Assembly: GCF_001650405.1 (NCBI RefSeq) | Contig: NZ_LWCU01000001.1 | Coordinates: forward strand, 214,311-278,310 | DNA length: 64,000 bases | Reading direction: 5' to 3' | From: Microbacterium sp. H83 | Lineage (GTDB): Bacteria > Actinomycetota > Actinomycetes > Actinomycetales > Microbacteriaceae | Part shown: piece after piece, positions 51,510 through 59,281 of the stretch | Position numbering within the stretch: the first letter of the stretch is position 1 | Layout of the letters: the number at the start of each line of letters is the position of its first letter | Position numbers and translations under genes: made by a program | The notes under the pieces: model-generated | The model's input: the letters and a program-made list of their open reading frames with translations, nothing else | Database searches by the model: none | Told to the model about the DNA's origin: nothing

Positions 51510-52571
51510 TCAGTGACCGCGCACGCGTCTGGTCGCGTCCTGCACCTCGCCCACGAGCTCCTCGAGGATGTCCTCCAGGAAGAGCACCGCTGTCGTGTTC
51601 CCCTGTGGATCGCGCACCTTCGCCAGGTGACGTCCGGCGCGACGCATCACCGCCAGGGCGTCCTCCAGATCCGTGTCCTCCTGGACGGGCACCATGTGAT
51701 GGATGCGCTTGGCGGGCAGCGGCTCGACGAGCTTCGCTGCCGCATCGGGGCCCTCGGATGCGCGGAGGATGTCCTTCAGATGCACGTAGCCGACCGGTAT
51801 CCCCTCGCCGTCGACGATCACGTAGCGCGAGAACCCGTACCGGGCGACCGCCCTCTCGATCTCGTCCGGCGTCGTCGTCTGCGGAAGCGTGACGAGATCT
51901 CCGAGCGGCACCGCGATGTCGCGGGCCTTCTTGTCGGTGAACTCCACCGCCGCGGCCACCGCGCCGACCGTGTCGGCGAGGATGCCCTCCCGACGCGACT
52001 GGTCGACGATCGTCGCCACCTCGCCCAGGGTGAACGTCGAGGCGGCCTCGTTCTTCGGCTCCACGCGGAAGAGCCGCAGGACGCCGTTGGCTGCGGCGTT
52101 GAGCACCCAGATGACCGGCATGAACGCCTTCGACACCCAGACGAGCGGCGGCGCGAGGATCAGCACGGCGCGATCCGGGACCGAGAACGCCAGGTTCTTC
52201 GGCACCATCTCGCCGAACACCACGTGCAGGAACGACACGAACAGGAGCGAGATGGTGAACGACACCGCGTCGACGACCCCCTCCGACCATCCGACCGCCT
52301 GCAGCGGTGTGGCGAGGAGGTGGTGGATCGCCGGCTCGGAGACGTTCAGGATCAGCAGCGAGCAGATGGTGATGACGAGCTGCGACGTCGCCAGCATCAG
52401 GGTGGCGTGCTCCATCGCGTAGAGCGCGGTCTTCGCCGCGCGCGAGCCCTGCTCGGCACGCGGCTCGATCTGCGAGCGTCGCGCCGAGATCACGGCGAAC
52501 TCGGCGCCGACGAAGAACGCGTTCGCGACGAGCAGCACGACGAGCCAGGCGATTCCTGCCCAATCGTTCAT
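51510..52571 (-). CDS. CNNM-type (CorC/HlyC) membrane protein with CBS domains, second of pair
   Basis: The 353-residue protein has the DUF21/CNNM membrane domain (about residues 1-190, ending HVVFGEMVPKNLAFSVPDRA) followed by a CBS-pair region (FTDKKARDIAVPLGDLV, YGFSRYVIVDGEGIPVGYVHLKD). The acidic GEMVPKNLA motif is the family signature of magnesium or other divalent cation transporters. It lacks a full CorC C-terminal domain. ATG at 52571 overlaps the stop of its larger paralogue (ATGA), so the pair is translated together and may form a heterodimer. Confidence 0.9.
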   Translation of the reverse strand: MNDWAGIAWLVVLLVANAFFVGAEFAVISARRSQIEPRAEQGSRAAKTALYAMEHATLMLATSQLVITICSLLILNVSEPAIHHLLATPLQAVGWSEGVVDAVSFTISLLFVSFLHVVFGEMVPKNLAFSVPDRAVLILAPPLVWVSKAFMPVIWVLNAAANGVLRLFRVEPKNEAASTFTLGEVATIVDQSRREGILADTVGAVAAAVEFTDKKARDIAVPLGDLVTLPQTTTPDEIERAVARYGFSRYVIVDGEGIPVGYVHLKDILRASEGPDAAAKLVEPLPAKRIHHMVPVQEDTDLEDALAVMRRAGRHLAKVRDPQGNTTAVLFLEDILEELVGEVQDATRRVRGH

Positions 52572-53884
52572 CGGGTCACCTCCTCGTCCGCCGTCTGCGG
52601 AGTCGCGATGTAGCGGATGCGGTCGACGCGTCGGCCGTCCATGCGGACCACCTGGAGCGTGCCGGTGTCGACGGCGACCTCGTCGCCGACGACCGGGACC
52701 CGCTCGAGGACGCTCATGATGTAGCCGGCGACGGTGTCGTACACATCGCCCTCCGGCACGTCCACGCCGGCGCGGCGCCGGAGCTCGTCCGGACGCAGCT
52801 CGCCGGGGAACGTCACCCCGCCGCGCCCGACGACGACGCCCGCCCGTGAGCGGTCGTGCTCGTCCGACACCTCGCCGACGATCTCCTCCACCAGGTCCTC
52901 CAGCGTGACGAGCCCGGCGGTGCCGCCGTATTCGTCGACGACGACGGCGAGCTGGTATCCGCGCGCCCGGAGCTCGGTGATGAGCCCGTCGACGTGGGCG
53001 GTCTCCGGCACGCGCAGAGGCTCCGTCGACAGCGCGCCCACCGGGACCTCGGCGCGGCGCTCGCGCGGCACCGAGATGGCGGCCTTGAGGTGCACGACGC
53101 CCGTGATGTCGTCCAGGTCCTCCCCGTACACGGGGAAGCGGCTGTGGCCGGTGCGCCGAGCGAGCTGGATGACCTCGTCCGCGGGGTCGCTCGCCGCGAG
53201 CGCGTGCATGCTCGGCCGCGCCGTCATGACGTCGGCGGCCGAGAGACGCGAGAACGTGAGCGTGCGGTCGAGCAGCGTGGCCGTGTCCGCTTCGAGCACG
53301 CCGGCGCTGGCCGACCGCCGGACGAGGGACGAGAGCTCTTCCGCCGTGCGGGCGCCCGAGAGCTCCTCCTTGGGCTCGATGCCCATGCTGCGCAGCACGC
53401 CGTTCGCGCTGCCGTTGAGGACGACCACCGCGGGCTTGAACACCGTCGTGAAGGCGACCTGGAACGGCACGACGAGCTTGGCCGTCGCGCGGGGCAGCGC
53501 GAGAGCGAAGTTCTTCGGCACGAGCTCTCCGAGGATCATCGACAGCGCGGTGGCCACGACCATCGCCACCACAGTGGCGATGGGAGCGATCGCCGGCTCC
53601 GGGATGCTCCAGGCGACGAGCGTCGGGCGCAGCAGATTCGAGAGCGCGGGCTCCATCGTGTATCCGGTGAGCAGGGTCGTCAGGGTGATGCCGAGCTGCG
53701 CCGCCGAGAGGTGCGTGGAGGTGTGGCGGAGGGCGCCGATGGTCATTGACAGACGTGACTCACCCCTGGCCTGTCGAGCCTCGAGATCGGCGCGGTCGAG
53801 GTTGACCAGGGCGAACTCGCTCGCCACGAAGAGTCCGGTGCCGACCGTGAGCAGCAGCCCCACGCCCAACAGGATGTAATCCAT
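52568..53884 (-). CDS. CNNM-type membrane protein with CBS pair and CorC domain, first of pair
   Basis: The 438-residue protein has the DUF21/CNNM transmembrane domain (GELVPKNFALALPRATAK), two CBS repeats (VMTARPSMHALAASDP, HSRFPVYGEDLDDITGVVHLKA, YQLAVVVDEYGGTAGLVTLEDLVEEIVGE) and the C-terminal CorC_HlyC domain. It probably exports or senses divalent cations such as magnesium. The ATG at 53884 overlaps the stop of a 22-codon upstream reading frame (TGATG), with GAGGGGAA as ribosome-binding site inside that frame. Confidence 0.92.
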   Translation of the reverse strand: MDYILLGVGLLLTVGTGLFVASEFALVNLDRADLEARQARGESRLSMTIGALRHTSTHLSAAQLGITLTTLLTGYTMEPALSNLLRPTLVAWSIPEPAIAPIATVVAMVVATALSMILGELVPKNFALALPRATAKLVVPFQVAFTTVFKPAVVVLNGSANGVLRSMGIEPKEELSGARTAEELSSLVRRSASAGVLEADTATLLDRTLTFSRLSAADVMTARPSMHALAASDPADEVIQLARRTGHSRFPVYGEDLDDITGVVHLKAAISVPRERRAEVPVGALSTEPLRVPETAHVDGLITELRARGYQLAVVVDEYGGTAGLVTLEDLVEEIVGEVSDEHDRSRAGVVVGRGGVTFPGELRPDELRRRAGVDVPEGDVYDTVAGYIMSVLERVPVVGDEVAVDTGTLQVVRMDGRRVDRIRYIATPQTADEEVTR

Positions 53885-53952
53885 CAGTGGTTCCCCTCAC
53901 GTCGGAGAGGCGGGCGGTGGGGCGATCTACTGCAACTGGGAGGGTCGTCCAT
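53884..53952 (-). CDS. Putative 22-codon leader ORF coupled to the CNNM gene
   Basis: ATG at 53952 (MDDPPSCSRSPHRPPLRREGNH) reads to a TGA that overlaps the CNNM ATG by one base (TGATG). A TACAAT -10 (53962-53967) ends nine bases before its ATG, so it would be translated from a near-leaderless transcript. Its 3' end contains the CNNM ribosome-binding site. It is proline- and arginine-rich, so a role as a regulatory leader peptide is possible. No homologue is known to me. Confidence 0.4.
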   Translation of the reverse strand: MDDPPSCSRSPHRPPLRREGNH

Positions 53953-53992
53953 AGTGTGACGATTGTACGGGATCGGGCCGTCGCGGAGGGCG

Positions 53993-55447
53993 TCACCAGC
54001 TGACCGGCAGCGCCTTCCCCTCCTCGTAGCCGGAGGCGGACTGCAACCCGACGAGCGCCCTGTCGTGGAACTCCGGCACCGATGAGGCGCCGGCGTAGGT
54101 GAACGACGATCTGACGCCCGAGGTGATCATGTCGAGGAGGTCCTCGAGTCCGGGGCGCAGGGGGTCGAGATAGATGCGCGACGAGGAGATCCCCTCCGCG
54201 AACAGCTCCTTGCGCGCCCGCTCGTAGGCGTCCAGCCGACCGAACCGCGCCTGGACCGCCTTCGTCGACGCCATCCCCCACGACTCCTTGAAGAGCCGAC
54301 CGTCCGCGTCGCTCTGGAGCTCGCCGGGGGCTTCGATCGTCCCCGCGAACCACGAGCCCACCATCACCGACGCCGCGCCCGCGGCGAGCGCCAGGGCGAC
54401 GTCGCGCGGGTAGCGCACACCACCGTCCGCCCACACGTGCGCGCCGAGCCCGCGCGCCGCTTCCGCGGTCTCGAGGACCGCGGAGAACTGCGGCCGTCCG
54501 ACGGCCGTCATCATGCGCGTCGTGCACATCGCGCCGGGACCGACGCCGACCTTGAGGATCGTCGCTCCGGCGGCGACGAGGTCCTCGACGCCGTCCGCGG
54601 TGACGACGTTGCCGGCGACGATCGGGATGCCGAGGCCGAGGTCCGCCACGGTGCGCAGGGCCCGCAGCATCCCCTCCTGGTGCCCGTGGGCGGTGTCGAC
54701 GACGAGGACGTCGACTCCCGCGGCCGCGAGCGCCCTCGCCTTCGACGCGACGTCGCCGTTGATCCCCACGGCGGCCGCGACGGCGAGACGTCCGTCGCCG
54801 TCCAGTGCGGGCGCGTAGAGCGTCGACCGCAGAGCGCTGCGCGCGCTGAGGGTGCCGACCAGATGCCCGTGCCGGGTGACGGTGACCATCTCGGCACCGG
54901 CATCCGTGATCACGTCGAAGGCGTGCCTCTCGGAGCCGATGTCGTCCGCGTCCAGCGACGGCGTCCCCGAGTGCACGAGGTCTCCGAGCTGAGCGTCGGG
55001 CAGCGCCGTGGCGAGTCGCGTGGCCGGGAGCACCCCGACGATGCGCTCGACGTCGTAGGGGGCGTCGCCGGTCGCGACGACGATCCCCTGGCCTGCGGTC
55101 GGAGGGAGCCAGCGCAGGGCGTCGGCGACGGAGGCCTCCGGCGGCAGCACGATCGGGGTGTCCCAGGGCACGGGCTGCGCCTTCACCTCGCGGATCGCGG
55201 CGTCCAGCGCCTGCAGCGGCATGTCCTGGGGGAGGACGCCGAGGCCGCCGCGACGCGCAAGCACCGCCGCCAGCCGGGGACCGGTGACGGAGTTCATGTT
55301 CGACGCGACGAGCGGCAGCGTCGCCGGCGTGCCGTCCAGGGGCGACAGATCGACCTGCAGTCGACTGGTGACGTCCGAACGTCGCGGGACGAGGAAGACG
55401 TCCGAATAGGTCAGATCGACAGTGGGTGACTCGCCGGAGAACTCCAT
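53993..55447 (-). CDS. guaB1: GuaB1-type IMP dehydrogenase-related enzyme (probable GMP reductase)
   Basis: The 484-residue protein has the IMPDH/GMPR barrel with catalytic Cys308 in VGVGPGAMCTTRMMT, GNVVTADG, the phosphate loop VWADGGVRYPRD, and a CBS pair inserted at about residues 95-215. The actinobacterial GuaB1 group was long called IMP dehydrogenase-related; at least one mycobacterial member is a GMP reductase regulated by its CBS domains. That function here is by family. ATG 55447 is supported by TACCGT (55454-55459) six bases upstream, leaderless. Confidence 0.9.
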   Translation of the reverse strand: MEFSGESPTVDLTYSDVFLVPRRSDVTSRLQVDLSPLDGTPATLPLVASNMNSVTGPRLAAVLARRGGLGVLPQDMPLQALDAAIREVKAQPVPWDTPIVLPPEASVADALRWLPPTAGQGIVVATGDAPYDVERIVGVLPATRLATALPDAQLGDLVHSGTPSLDADDIGSERHAFDVITDAGAEMVTVTRHGHLVGTLSARSALRSTLYAPALDGDGRLAVAAAVGINGDVASKARALAAAGVDVLVVDTAHGHQEGMLRALRTVADLGLGIPIVAGNVVTADGVEDLVAAGATILKVGVGPGAMCTTRMMTAVGRPQFSAVLETAEAARGLGAHVWADGGVRYPRDVALALAAGAASVMVGSWFAGTIEAPGELQSDADGRLFKESWGMASTKAVQARFGRLDAYERARKELFAEGISSSRIYLDPLRPGLEDLLDMITSGVRSSFTYAGASSVPEFHDRALVGLQSASGYEEGKALPVSW

Positions 55448-55514
55448 ACGCCCACGGTACTCAGATCAAGGGGGCCGAGGTGCATGCCTTGGACGATCCG
55501 GCAGGGAAACACGT

Positions 55515-55520
55515 TAGGCT
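55515..55520 (+). promoter_or_regulatory. Putative -10 of kgd
   Basis: TAGGCT lies about 92 bases before the kgd start, giving a leader of roughly 80 bases. TTGGAC (about 20 bases upstream of it) is the best, but too distant, -35 candidate. Confidence 0.4.
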
Positions 55521-55606
55521 TGTCAGTCGAGAGTGTGCGGGCCCGGACGCATCCTGCGTCGCGGTGTGCACATGTGAGATTCAGCGATGAAAGAGGGCGA
55601 TCGAGC

Positions 55607-58600
55607 GTGTCGAACCAGGTGACCGGCGTCGGGGGCGACGGGGGGTTCGGAGCCAATTCCTGGCTCGTGGAAGAGCTCTACGAGCAGTTCAAGGTGAACC
55701 GCGATTCCGTGGACAAGGAATGGTGGCCCATCCTCGAGAAGTACCACTCGGAGGCCGCCTCGACGCCCGCTGCCCCGGCGGCGCCCGCCGCCGAGCAGCC
55801 GGCGCACCCGGTCACCGCCCCGATCCCCGTCATCGGAGCGCAGCCCGTCGCCCGCACGACGACGAAGCCCGCGGCCGCCGCTCCGATCCCCGCGCAGGCG
55901 CCGAAGCCCGCGACGACGGATGCCCAGGACCCGGCCGAAGAGGACAAGGTCACGCCGCTGCGCGGCCTGCCGAAGACCCTGGCCGCGAACATGGACGAGT
56001 CCCTCACAGTTCCGACGGCCACCAGCGTCCGCACGGTGCCCGCGAAGCTGATGATCGACAACCGCATCGTCATCAACAACCACATGGCGCGCACCCGCGG
56101 CGGGAAGATCAGCTTCACCCACCTGATCGGGTGGGCGCTCATCCGCACGCTCGACGAGTTCCGCAGCCAGAACGTGTTCTACGCCGAGGTCGACGGCAAG
56201 CCCTCGGTCGTCGCCCCCGCGCACGTGAACCTCGGCATCGCGATCGACCTGCCGAAGCCCGACGGCACCCGCGCCCTCATGGTGCCCAGCATCAAGCGCG
56301 CCGAGACCATGACCTTCAGCGAGTACCTCTCGGCGTACGAGGACCTCGTCACGCGCGCCCGCGGCAACAAGCTGACCGCCGCCGACTTCCAGGGCACCAC
56401 CGTGTCGCTCACGAACCCCGGCGGCATCGGCACCGTGCACTCCGTCCCCCGTCTCATGAAGGGACAGGGCTGCATCATCGGCGCCGGCGCACTCGAGTAC
56501 CCGGCCGAGTTCCAGGGCGCGAGCCAGAAGACCCTCAACGAGCTCGCGATCGGCAAGACGATCACGCTGACGAGCACCTACGACCACCGCGTCATCCAGG
56601 GTGCGGGCTCCGGCGAGTTCCTCAAGAAGGTCCACGAGCTGCTCATCGGCCAGCGCGGCTTCTACGACGACATCTTCGCCGCGCTGCGCATCCCGTACGC
56701 GCCGATCCGCTGGAACCCCGACATCGCCGTCGACCTCGCCGAGCGCGTGGACAAGCAGTCGCGCGTGCAGGAGCTCATCAACTCCTACCGCGTGCGCGGG
56801 CATCTGATGGCCGACATCGACCCGCTCGAGTACGTCCAGCGCTCGCACCCCGACCTCGAGATCGAGAGCCACGGACTCACGTTCTGGGATCTCGACCGCG
56901 AGTTCGTGACCGGCGGCTTCGGCGGCCGGCGCATCGCCAAGCTCCGCGACATCCTCGGCGTGCTGCGCGACTCGTACTGCCGCACGCTCGGCATCGAGTA
57001 CATGCACATCCAGGACCCCGAGCAGCGTCGGTGGTTCCAGGAGAAGGTCGAGGTGAAGTACCAGAAGCCCGGACACGACGAGCAGCTGCGCGTGCTGCGC
57101 AAGCTCAACGAGGCGGAGGCATTCGAGACCTTCCTGCAGACGAAGTTCGTCGGCCAGAAGCGCTTCTCGCTCGAGGGCGGCGAGTCCCTCGTCCCGCTCC
57201 TCGACGAGATCCTCCAGGGAGCTGCGACCGCAGGCCTCGAGGGCGCGGCGATCGGCATGGCCCACCGCGGCCGCCTCAACGTCCTGACGAACATCGCGGG
57301 CAAGACCTACGGTCAGGTCTTCCAGGAGTTCGAGGGCACGCAGACCCCGGGCAACCAGCGCGGATCCGGAGACGTGAAGTACCACCTCGGCACCGAGGGC
57401 ACCTTCGTCGCCGACGACGGCTCGCAGCTCCCCGTCTACCTCGCCGCCAACCCGTCCCACCTCGAGACCGTCGACGGCGTGCTCGAGGGCATCGTCCGCG
57501 CGAAGCAGGACCGCAAGCCGATCGGCACCTTCACCTGGCTGCCGATCCTCGTGCACGGCGACGCGGCGTTCGCGGGTCAGGGCGTCGTCGTCGAGACGCT
57601 GCAGATGTCCCAGCTGCGCGGCTACCGCACCGGCGGCACCGTGCACATCGTCGTCAACAACCAGGTCGGCTTCACGACCCTCCCCAACGACTCCCGCACC
57701 TCGGTCTACGCCACGGACGTCGCGAAGACCATCCAGGCGCCCGTGCTGCACGTGAACGGAGACGACCCCGAGGCCGTCATCCACGTGGCCCAGCTCGCGT
57801 TCGAGTACCGTGAGCGCTTCCACCGCGACGTCGTGATCGATCTCGTCTGCTACCGCCGCCGCGGCCACAACGAGGGCGACGACCCCTCGATGACGCAGCC
57901 GCTGATGACCGACCTGATCCAGGCGAAGCGCTCGGTGCGCAAGCTGTACACGGAGTCGCTCGTCGGTCGCGGTGACATCACCGAGGAGGAGTACGACGAG
58001 GCGAAGGCCGACTTCCAGAACCGTCTGGAGATCGCGTTCGCCGAGACCCACGCCGCGGAGACCGGCGCGATGTCGGTGGGCCAGGATCTGCCGGCCGCCG
58101 ACGAGCAGACCGGTGCACCCGAGGTGACGGGCGTGCCGAACGAGGTCATCCAGCTGATCGGCGACGCCTTCGTGAACAAGCCGGAGGGCTTCACGGTGCA
58201 CCCCAAGCTGCAGCAGCAGCTTGAGAAGCGTCTCGACATGAGCCGCAACGGCAACATCGACTGGGGCTTCGGCGAGCTGCTCGCCTTCGGTTCGCTGCTC
58301 GTCGAGGGCACCCCCGTGCGACTCGCCGGACAGGATTCCCGCCGAGGCACGTTCGTGCAGCGTCACGCGACTCTGCACGACCGCGCCAACGGGCAGGAGT
58401 GGCTGCCGCTGGCGAACCTCTCCGAGTCCCAGGGCCGCTTCTTCGTCTACGACTCGCTGCTCAGCGAGTACGCGGCTCTCGGATTCGAGTACGGCTACTC
58501 GGTCGAGGCGCCCGAGGCGCTCGTCCTCTGGGAGGCGCAGTTCGGCGACTTCGTCAACGGCGCCCAATCCGTGATCGACGAGTACATCTCCGCGGCGGAG

Positions 58601-59281
58601 CAGAAGTGGGGCCAGCAGTCCAGCGTCACGCTGCTGCTCCCCCACGGCTACGAGGGCCAGGGACCCGACCACTCGTCATCCCGCATCGAGCGCTTCCTCC
58701 AGCTGTGCGCGCAGGAGAACATGATCGTCGCGCGTCCGTCGGCCCCGGCATCGTACTTCCACCTGCTGCGTCGCCAGGCGTACGCCCGTCCGCGCAAGCC
58801 GCTGATCGTCTTCACGCCGAAGGCGATGCTGCGCCTCCGCGGCGCGACCAGCCCGGTCGAGGCGTTCACCCAGGGCCGCTTCGAGCCGGTCATCGACGAC
58901 GCACGCGACCTCGACCGGTCCGCGGTGAAGCGCGTGCTCGTCCACTCGGGCAAGGTGCACTGGGACCTGCGGGCCGAGCTCGAGAAGAAGCCGAACCCCG
59001 AGGTGGCCCTCGTCCGGCTCGAGCAGCTCTACCCGACTCCGATCGACGCGCTCAAGGCGATCACCGACTCCTACCCGAACGCGGAGCTCGTGTGGGTCCA
59101 GGAGGAGCCGGAGAACCAGGGTGCATGGCCGTTCCTGGCGCTGGCCTTCGCCGACGTCCCGGGAGATCGGTCGTTCCGGCCGGTGTCGCGGCCCGCCTCC
59201 GCGTCGCCCGCCACGGGGTCGTCGAAGGTGCATGCCGCCGAGCAGGCGAAGCTGCTCCGCGACGCGCTGACGACGTCCTGA
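55607..59281 (+). CDS. kgd: Multifunctional 2-oxoglutarate dehydrogenase E1/E2-type enzyme
   Basis: The 1224-residue protein fuses an E2-like domain to the E1 subunit of 2-oxoglutarate dehydrogenase, the actinobacterial Kgd/OdhA type. Its N-terminal signature is FGANSWLVEELYEQF. After an Ala/Pro linker (about 50-110) comes an acyltransferase domain with the catalytic His near residue 327 (TYDHRVIQGAGSGEF), then the ThDP-dependent E1 domain, including GMAHRGRLNVL and the C-terminal transketolase-like PHGYEGQGPDHSSSRIERFLQ. It acts in the TCA cycle; FHA proteins such as GarA/OdhI normally inhibit it. The start is GTG 55607, with AAGAGGG upstream. Confidence 0.96.
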   Translation: MSNQVTGVGGDGGFGANSWLVEELYEQFKVNRDSVDKEWWPILEKYHSEAASTPAAPAAPAAEQPAHPVTAPIPVIGAQPVARTTTKPAAAAPIPAQAPKPATTDAQDPAEEDKVTPLRGLPKTLAANMDESLTVPTATSVRTVPAKLMIDNRIVINNHMARTRGGKISFTHLIGWALIRTLDEFRSQNVFYAEVDGKPSVVAPAHVNLGIAIDLPKPDGTRALMVPSIKRAETMTFSEYLSAYEDLVTRARGNKLTAADFQGTTVSLTNPGGIGTVHSVPRLMKGQGCIIGAGALEYPAEFQGASQKTLNELAIGKTITLTSTYDHRVIQGAGSGEFLKKVHELLIGQRGFYDDIFAALRIPYAPIRWNPDIAVDLAERVDKQSRVQELINSYRVRGHLMADIDPLEYVQRSHPDLEIESHGLTFWDLDREFVTGGFGGRRIAKLRDILGVLRDSYCRTLGIEYMHIQDPEQRRWFQEKVEVKYQKPGHDEQLRVLRKLNEAEAFETFLQTKFVGQKRFSLEGGESLVPLLDEILQGAATAGLEGAAIGMAHRGRLNVLTNIAGKTYGQVFQEFEGTQTPGNQRGSGDVKYHLGTEGTFVADDGSQLPVYLAANPSHLETVDGVLEGIVRAKQDRKPIGTFTWLPILVHGDAAFAGQGVVVETLQMSQLRGYRTGGTVHIVVNNQVGFTTLPNDSRTSVYATDVAKTIQAPVLHVNGDDPEAVIHVAQLAFEYRERFHRDVVIDLVCYRRRGHNEGDDPSMTQPLMTDLIQAKRSVRKLYTESLVGRGDITEEEYDEAKADFQNRLEIAFAETHAAETGAMSVGQDLPAADEQTGAPEVTGVPNEVIQLIGDAFVNKPEGFTVHPKLQQQLEKRLDMSRNGNIDWGFGELLAFGSLLVEGTPVRLAGQDSRRGTFVQRHATLHDRANGQEWLPLANLSESQGRFFVYDSLLSEYAALGFEYGYSVEAPEALVLWEAQFGDFVNGAQSVIDEYISAAEQKWGQQSSVTLLLPHGYEGQGPDHSSSRIERFLQLCAQENMIVARPSAPASYFHLLRRQAYARPRKPLIVFTPKAMLRLRGATSPVEAFTQGRFEPVIDDARDLDRSAVKRVLVHSGKVHWDLRAELEKKPNPEVALVRLEQLYPTPIDALKAITDSYPNAELVWVQEEPENQGAWPFLALAFADVPGDRSFRPVSRPASASPATGSSKVHAAEQAKLLRDALTTS

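Follow-up and report, generated by a model that had tools for sequence, protein, structure and literature searches.

The CNNM/CBS/CorC_HlyC gene on the minus strand of the window (the whole 64-kb stretch of DNA that was analysed) is preceded by a short leader ORF, or uORF, which begins a few bases behind a -10 box, encodes Met-Asp-Asp-Pro-Pro as its first residues and ends on the CNNM start codon. The conservation of this uORF is far beyond chance. As judged from comparison with relatives, its variation has the pattern of a translated, coupled ORF and not that of a DNA operator or a frameshift site. The conserved uORF is almost certainly translated, and translation of CNNM is very probably coupled to it. 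The observation is much stronger than could be seen from the sequence of the window alone. The control of magnesium export in bacteria is less understood than that of import, and a conserved leader before an Actinobacterial CNNM gene provides a defined, testable switch.

The leader and its genomic surroundings

A preliminary description of this DNA had proposed a 22-codon uORF sharing a TGATG overlap with the CNNM ATG. This is borne out by the coordinates and by the Pfam assignments (Table 1), and the A of the uORF TGA doubles as the first base of the CNNM ATG (53884). The near-leaderless start that it placed nine bases after TACAAT is confirmed in its spacing, with the box at 53967-53962 and the ATG at 53952, and the CNNM ribosome-binding site that it located in the last codons of the uORF corresponds to GAGGGG in codons 19-20. 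The -10 box is identified by its conservation alone; a scan for sigma-70 consensus promoters between 52500 and 56000 found none, and neither did a terminator scan of the same region find a terminator.

Table 1. Positions of the leader, its parts and the neighbouring genes in the window.
Feature	Position	Strand	Remark
-10 box TACAAT	53967-53962 (53962..53967)	minus	TANNNT conserved at this place in relatives
Nine-base spacer, -10 box to uORF ATG	53953..53961	minus	Transcript probably starts here
Leader ORF, 22 codons + TGA, MDDPPSCSRSPHRPPLRREGNH	53884..53952	minus	From translation; kept in relatives
Conserved head ATG GAC GAC CCT CCC AGT (MDDPPS)	53935..53952	minus	Proposed elongation checkpoint
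Hairpin 5' arm CCTCTC, uORF codons 15-16	53905..53910	minus	Best 6-bp register in 42 Microbacterium leaders
Hairpin 3' arm GAGGGG, the CNNM Shine-Dalgarno, uORF codons 19-20	53893..53898	minus	
TGATG stop/start overlap of uORF and CNNM	53882..53886	minus	TGA 53886-53884, ATG 53884-53882
CNNM/CBS/CorC_HlyC gene, putative regulated gene	52568..53884	minus	Pfam CNNM, CBS, CorC_HlyC
Second CNNM gene, CNNM + CBS domains	51510..52571	minus	Pfam
guaB1 (GMP reductase), upstream neighbour	53993..55447	minus	NF052358, 739.6 bits, cutoff 675

The first and second CNNM genes share ATGA at 52568-52571, and the second is probably co-translated with the first via this overlap. The protein encoded by the first gene has its best named match, at 97% identity, in Microbacterium sp. 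3J1; its top NCBIfam match is the polyamine exporter PaeA, with 154 bits far below the cutoff of 500. Upstream, guaB1 is not part of the element because the uORF is kept where guaB1 lies far off or outside the fetched stretch, and the gap to guaB1 is variable. Divergent from guaB1 is a 1265-aa ORF on the plus strand (55484-59281), which resembles a 2-oxoglutarate decarboxylase/dehydrogenase E1; the first ATG seems to lie too early, and translation may in fact begin further downstream.

Conservation of the leader ORF

Three samples of CNNM loci were compared. The genus sample comprised 138 loci from Microbacterium or its nearest named relatives (L001-L138, the window included), of which 124 were left after the removal of 14 duplicates. 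The first family sample comprised 86 loci of other Microbacteriaceae genera (L151-L237 without L157), mostly one genome per genus together with six second copies or second genomes, and was reduced to 82 distinct leaders by setting aside a duplicate and the loci L175, L193 and L237, which lack a usable start codon. The second family sample consisted of 29 loci from second genomes (L307-L335).

All 124 distinct Microbacterium leaders begin with the head M[DEG][DE]PP, which is MDDPP in 123 and MDDPPS in 122, and non-conservation of the uORF in related genomes, a point that the preliminary description had left to be checked, is excluded. The same head opens 64/82 and 21/29 leaders in the two samples of other genera. 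On the promoter side, TANNNT is found 6-11 nt before the uORF ATG in every one of the 124 Microbacterium leaders, and in 186 of 198 leaders the distance from the end of the box to the ATG is 9 or 10 nt. On the CNNM side, the uORF stop falls 1-13 nt past the CNNM start in 122/124 Microbacterium leaders and in 61/64 and 19/21 of those from the other genera. The uORFs of L133 and L136 stop 6-8 nt short of the CNNM start, and the leader of L142 is broken off after seven codons. Some Microbacterium genomes hold paralogous CNNM copies that are approximately 58-60% identical (L141, L142 and L340), and each copy has an MDDPP leader of its own.

Where the head is missing, a different near-leaderless ORF often ends at the CNNM start, as seen in 18 of the 26 exceptions from the two family samples. 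The first family sample has 18 exceptions: 11 with another such ORF, for example MDDHHHRHSPY, MDDPGHSP or MTDDHSHSPEPEP, and seven with none that starts with ATG or GTG, one of which (L185) has a TTG-start candidate. In the second (n = 29), seven of the head-less leaders have another such ORF and one has none.

In the genome of the window the start motif ATGGAYGAYCCNCC has a single occurrence, which is the one in this uORF. The motif is present at least once in 99/99 genus genomes, and a reversed control pattern in 14/99. Twelve of the listed matches that lay outside the known CNNM leaders were inspected, of which eight turned out to be CNNM leaders and four looked incidental (L336, L338, L345 and L347). 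Of 87 long ORFs in the window with high GC3, only this CNNM gene was positive in a mechanical test for a near-leaderless short ORF that ends at a gene start (0/86 of the other ORFs).

Peptide, codons and the Shine-Dalgarno hairpin

Selection on the peptide was assessed without a motif filter. In the 124 Microbacterium leaders, residue 2 is Asp in 123 and Glu in one, and residues 3, 4 and 5 are Asp, Pro and Pro in all 124, while residues 7-10 have heterozygosities of 0.36-0.75. As the Asp codons hardly vary within Microbacterium, one leader apart (codon heterozygosity 0.00-0.02), the argument for selection is made by comparing genera. Here, 73 leaders from other genera were used, taken for having a near-leaderless ORF of whatever sequence that ends at the CNNM start. 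At residues 2-5 their amino-acid heterozygosity is 0.08-0.27 against a codon heterozygosity of 0.40-0.73, and at residues 7-10 their amino-acid heterozygosity rises to 0.77-0.87. In 28 leaders of the second family sample the values for residues 2-5 are 0.14-0.37 for amino acids against 0.37-0.79 for codons. The persistence of Asp-Asp-Pro-Pro across genera through synonymous changes argues that the peptide is under selection, and the unfiltered set of 73 thus has the signature of coding selection on a coupled leader ORF.

The substitutions themselves can be seen in leaders of other genera that were chosen by the motif M[DG][DE][PHSG], a choice that tilts the counts toward conservation at residues 2-4. 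Codon 2 is GAC in 44 and GAT in 23, codon 4 is CCT in 45, CCC in 20 and CCG in 2, codon 5 is CCT in 28, CCG in 20 and CCC in 19, and codon 6 includes TCT (39), TCA (6) and AGT (6). Serine 6 is encoded by TCN in some leaders and by AGY in others. The leader had been described as rich in proline and arginine; the prolines are conserved, but the arginine positions vary among leaders and the conserved part is Asp-Asp-Pro-Pro.

Beyond the head, uORF lengths run from 11 to 53 aa while the head and the overlap stay, so the middle of the uORF is dispensable. The frame relative to CNNM is one of two different frames in 146 and 44 leaders, respectively, and the CNNM frame itself in 2. The use of two relative frames argues against programmed frameshifting into CNNM, which was rejected. 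A second block, H[RKSQ]P, follows residue 5 in 96/198 leaders and is often spelled CAT AGA CCC; AGA makes up 39% of the arginine codons at uORF codons 7-14, compared to 0.5% in CNNM bodies.

The codons of the head are unlike those of the gene that follows. Proline in codons 2-6 (n = 399) is CCT in 55%, CCC in 37% and CCG in 8%, where the CNNM bodies have 3%, 38% and 58%, and codon 4 is CCT or CCC in 191/198 leaders. Serine in the uORF head (n = 181) is AGT in 64% and TCT in 28%, compared to 4% and 1% in CNNM bodies. The early codons of the window ORFs are without this bias (CCT 10/79, AGT 3/136), so that an A/T bias common to early codons does not by itself account for the choice. A plain A/T preference is likewise disfavoured because Asp prefers GAC, at 92% against a background of 82%. 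The choice fits either a less folded 5' end or the use of m1G37-dependent CCU/CCC codons, which have been described for mgtL together with a strict need of TrmD for Mg2+ (PMC6335274). In 72 leaders, 5'-end accessibility is 0.574 versus 0.502 in a synonymous null; it may contribute to the codon choice, and because the 5' end is also more accessible, the T-ending codons need not reflect tRNA modification.

A hairpin that would cover the CNNM Shine-Dalgarno was found in a set of 42 distinct Microbacterium leaders, close relatives whose uORF and CNNM start codons have 68 nt between them. When all 6-bp registers are compared, the best one pairs uORF nt 42-47 with nt 54-59 (counted from 0), the latter being the Shine-Dalgarno, and 93% of the cells are paired. 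One pair of the main stem is T-A in 18 leaders, C-G in 15 and T-G in 7, and another is T-A in 29, C-G in 11 and T-G in 2; on the CNNM tree these states require 12 and 4 steps. In 2000 permutations, the number of paired cells reached at most 224 and that of double changes at most 21, compared to the 234 and 32 found in the 42 leaders. In the window, the arms at 53910-53905 and 53898-53893 form six pairs, one of them U-G.

Over 173 leaders, Shine-Dalgarno pairing averages 0.736 versus 0.698 with the upstream sequence shuffled, and in the other genera it is 0.723 versus 0.693. With this small excess, and with uORFs of 11-16 aa that leave little room for a hairpin, the hairpin is not the general device. 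Its compensatory changes point to an accessory role in part of Microbacterium; elsewhere it is predicted to be weak or absent. In the same 42 leaders the early CCTCCC also forms a register with the Shine-Dalgarno, the best one besides shifts of the main stem, with 82% of the cells pairing. This pairing does not track Shine-Dalgarno changes, and one of its pairs is C facing A in 29/42 leaders. As the register is present without covariation, it is a doubtful second switch state in this group of 42.

A candidate switch, its parallels and its rivals

The direction of control is suggested by a natural variant. L193 lacks the uORF stop and the CNNM start, and its CNNM protein opens with MDDPPSAELLLLIAG, the head being joined in frame to CNNM downstream of a promoter of this kind. 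In L327, from the same genus, the uORF is a separate one of 12 codons with TGATG. In the fused gene, stalling or drop-off at DDPP can only lower CNNM, so that completion of the uORF would turn CNNM on elsewhere if the head does the same job there. Extrapolating from this one locus, we infer that uORF completion switches CNNM on, a sign opposite to that of MgtL and MgtQ. The reversed sign is sensible if this CNNM exports Mg2+. Proteins of the CNNM/CorC type have been linked to Mg2+ export or protection (PMC6711546, PMC12421838), and the CNNM homologue MpfA, a proposed Mg2+ exporter of S. aureus, is reported to be required for growth in high Mg2+ (PMC6711546). The putative Mg2+ role suggested in the preliminary description finds partial support, but the sign to be expected is the opposite one and the key residues are Asp-Asp-Pro-Pro.

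The switch could work in four steps. Transcription would start a few bases before the ATG, as the conserved promoter suggests, and ribosomes would enter at the near-leaderless uORF. Met-Asp-Asp-Pro-Pro would then be a weak point at which the young ribosome complex stalls or falls off. Ribosomes that pass would reach the stop, in some species opening the hairpin over the CNNM Shine-Dalgarno, and by terminating on the CNNM start codon they could begin CNNM by termination-reinitiation, such that CNNM output would be set by how large a share of the ribosomes completes the uORF. These three steps, which one of the rivals below has in common, have together a slightly better than even chance, and the role of Asp-Asp-Pro-Pro as the elongation checkpoint is by itself reasonably probable. 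The fourth step is the least certain: passage may depend on Mg2+, ample Mg2+ turning on the Mg2+-exporting CNNM, by intrinsic destabilisation of the ribosome and/or by Mg2+-dependent m1G37 methylation of the tRNA for CCU/CCC proline codons. The MgtL-like motif and these proline codons make Mg2+ plausible as the main signal, at somewhat less than even chances.

The boldest reading is a Mg2+ meter with positive logic, near-leaderless, built on MDDPP and spread throughout the Microbacteriaceae, to which we give less than even chances. When Mg2+ is short ribosomes would drop off, and only those that finish would start the CNNM Mg2+ exporter. Diverged versions may exist in other Actinomycetes, and the fused head would do the same sensing with no ORF of its own, as a natural counterpart of CorC/YbeX. 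The same head occurs in a long uORF with a hairpin, in an 11-codon uORF and fused to the transporter, which makes this a comparative system. Should Mg2+ be the signal, distant phyla would be using destabilisation of the ribosome as a general cation sensor, with one sign for import and the opposite sign for export.

We know of no homology between MgtL and the MDDPP leader. MgtL, which precedes mgtA in enterobacteria, is likewise a short leader ORF before a gene for (here putative) Mg2+ transport, has acidic and proline residues in its first codons (EPDP in MgtL, DDPP here) and uses m1G37-type proline codons; ribosomes are reported to drop off at EPDP in low Mg2+ (PMC11282234). MgtL is described as acting on downstream Rho-dependent termination, where its failure turns the importer on (PMC11282234), whereas the present ORF overlaps CNNM with no leader region between, should turn CNNM on by its completion and comes from a different phylum. 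The element would work as a checkpoint of the MgtL type joined to a coupled start, but it was not placed in the MgtL class, which is defined by an attenuator leader that is absent here. MgtQ of the Salmonella mgtCBRU operon is another uORF with acidic residues and controls MgtB translation through a hairpin at the ribosome-binding site, but it has its own strong Shine-Dalgarno and lies within an operon, and its weak translation promotes that of MgtB (PMC8092293).

The nearest parallel is a hypothesis published for Salmonella, which suggests that both CorC and MgpA rise with Mg2+, the former by means of an early destabilising sequence and the latter by means of its overlapping leader YoaL (PMC12421838). 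YoaL resembles the present leader in overlapping the upstream region of a CorC-domain gene, YoaE (MgpA), and loss of its start is reported to lower MgpA; CorC/YbeX, with an early destabilising sequence inside a Mg2+-protection gene, resembles the fused L193 (PMC12421838). The proteins are different, since MgpA is of the TerC type and CorC is a cytoplasmic CorC protein, and both belong to Salmonella/E. coli. The N-terminal destabilising sequence of CorC was reportedly the subject of work by Chadani in 2021. The present element would combine the ideas of MgtL, MgtQ and CorC/MgpA in one device. The M-box (ykoK) riboswitch also links Mg2+ to transport control in Actinobacteria, where a mycobacterial form that precedes uORFs is described (PMC12810186). 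Here, the region 53600-54300 matches no Rfam family up to E 1, and an aptamer would not fit ahead of the uORF on a near-leaderless RNA. In the open-licence literature, no description of an MDDPP leader was found among the titles and abstracts of the best-ranked matches, and the string 'MDDPP' occurs there in two unrelated papers.

Several other explanations must be weighed against a Mg2+ meter. The first three steps could hold with another signal, DDPP sensing EF-P capacity, charging or modification of tRNA-Pro, polyamines, or energy via ABC-F, and this is possible, if rather doubtful. MgtL is reported to respond to EF-P via its proline codons (PMC6460261) and to EttA via its acidic residues (PMC11282234), and the best partial NCBIfam match of the CNNM protein is a polyamine exporter; set against this are the link of CNNM/CorC to Mg2+ and a head that is like the Mg2+-sensing motif of MgtL, which is resemblance only. 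An unlikely reading has no sensing at all, the near-leaderless uORF merely feeding ribosomes to CNNM by reinitiation, which is reported to be common at overlaps (PMC6728339). Several relatives indeed do without the uORF and have CNNM directly behind a -10 box (L166, L173, L190, L235, probably L330, and five loci from the family f18). Constitutive coupling, however, explains neither the constancy of residues 2-5 in an otherwise variable peptide nor the use of CCT in the head, which is so much higher than in the CNNM bodies and in the early codons of the window ORFs.

Attenuation in the manner of MgtQ would have the sign turned around, a stalled or lost ribosome exposing the CNNM Shine-Dalgarno and turning CNNM on. 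MgtQ works in this way in Salmonella (PMC8092293) and the early CCTCCC is able to pair with the Shine-Dalgarno, but that pairing does not follow the Shine-Dalgarno changes, and the scheme is unworkable for the fused L193 gene and for very short uORFs; we regard it as improbable. The DNA itself is nearly invariant over ATGGACGACCCTCC in Microbacterium, as it would be for an operator or RNA-binding site over +1 that is open only by accident. Across genera, however, synonymous codon changes leave the amino acids in place, and serine is encoded by either TCN or AGY. The uORF stop stays at the CNNM start despite many different uORF lengths, and in L193 the head is part of the CNNM reading frame. 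The synonymous drift largely refutes this reading, which retains very little probability. A functional small protein acting in trans is just as hard to credit: its N-terminal residues are conserved, yet only five or six are kept while the remainder varies in sequence and length, and the paralogous CNNM copies of L141 and L340 own separate leaders.

Outside the Microbacteriaceae the MDDPP motif is diverged or absent. In other families of the order, 25/40 loci pass the mechanical test, a permissive one, for a near-leaderless ORF that ends at the CNNM start; some of these have related heads (MDDPSHKPMP, MDPDSCSPS, MDSDSHTS and MSSDARVDSDPPSTSHHP) and many others are unlike. At the level of the class, 3/25 loci pass this test. 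Short ORFs also precede CNNM homologues in further families of the class, and these could be leader ORFs that arose independently or have diverged. By eye, short ORFs recur as MDGSS[CG]STC in f21 loci (L289, L291 and L296) and as MSxPDPWSTxPC in f75 loci (L303 and L305), and the short peptide DDAGCSSGRPTR recurs in f76 loci (L282 and L290).
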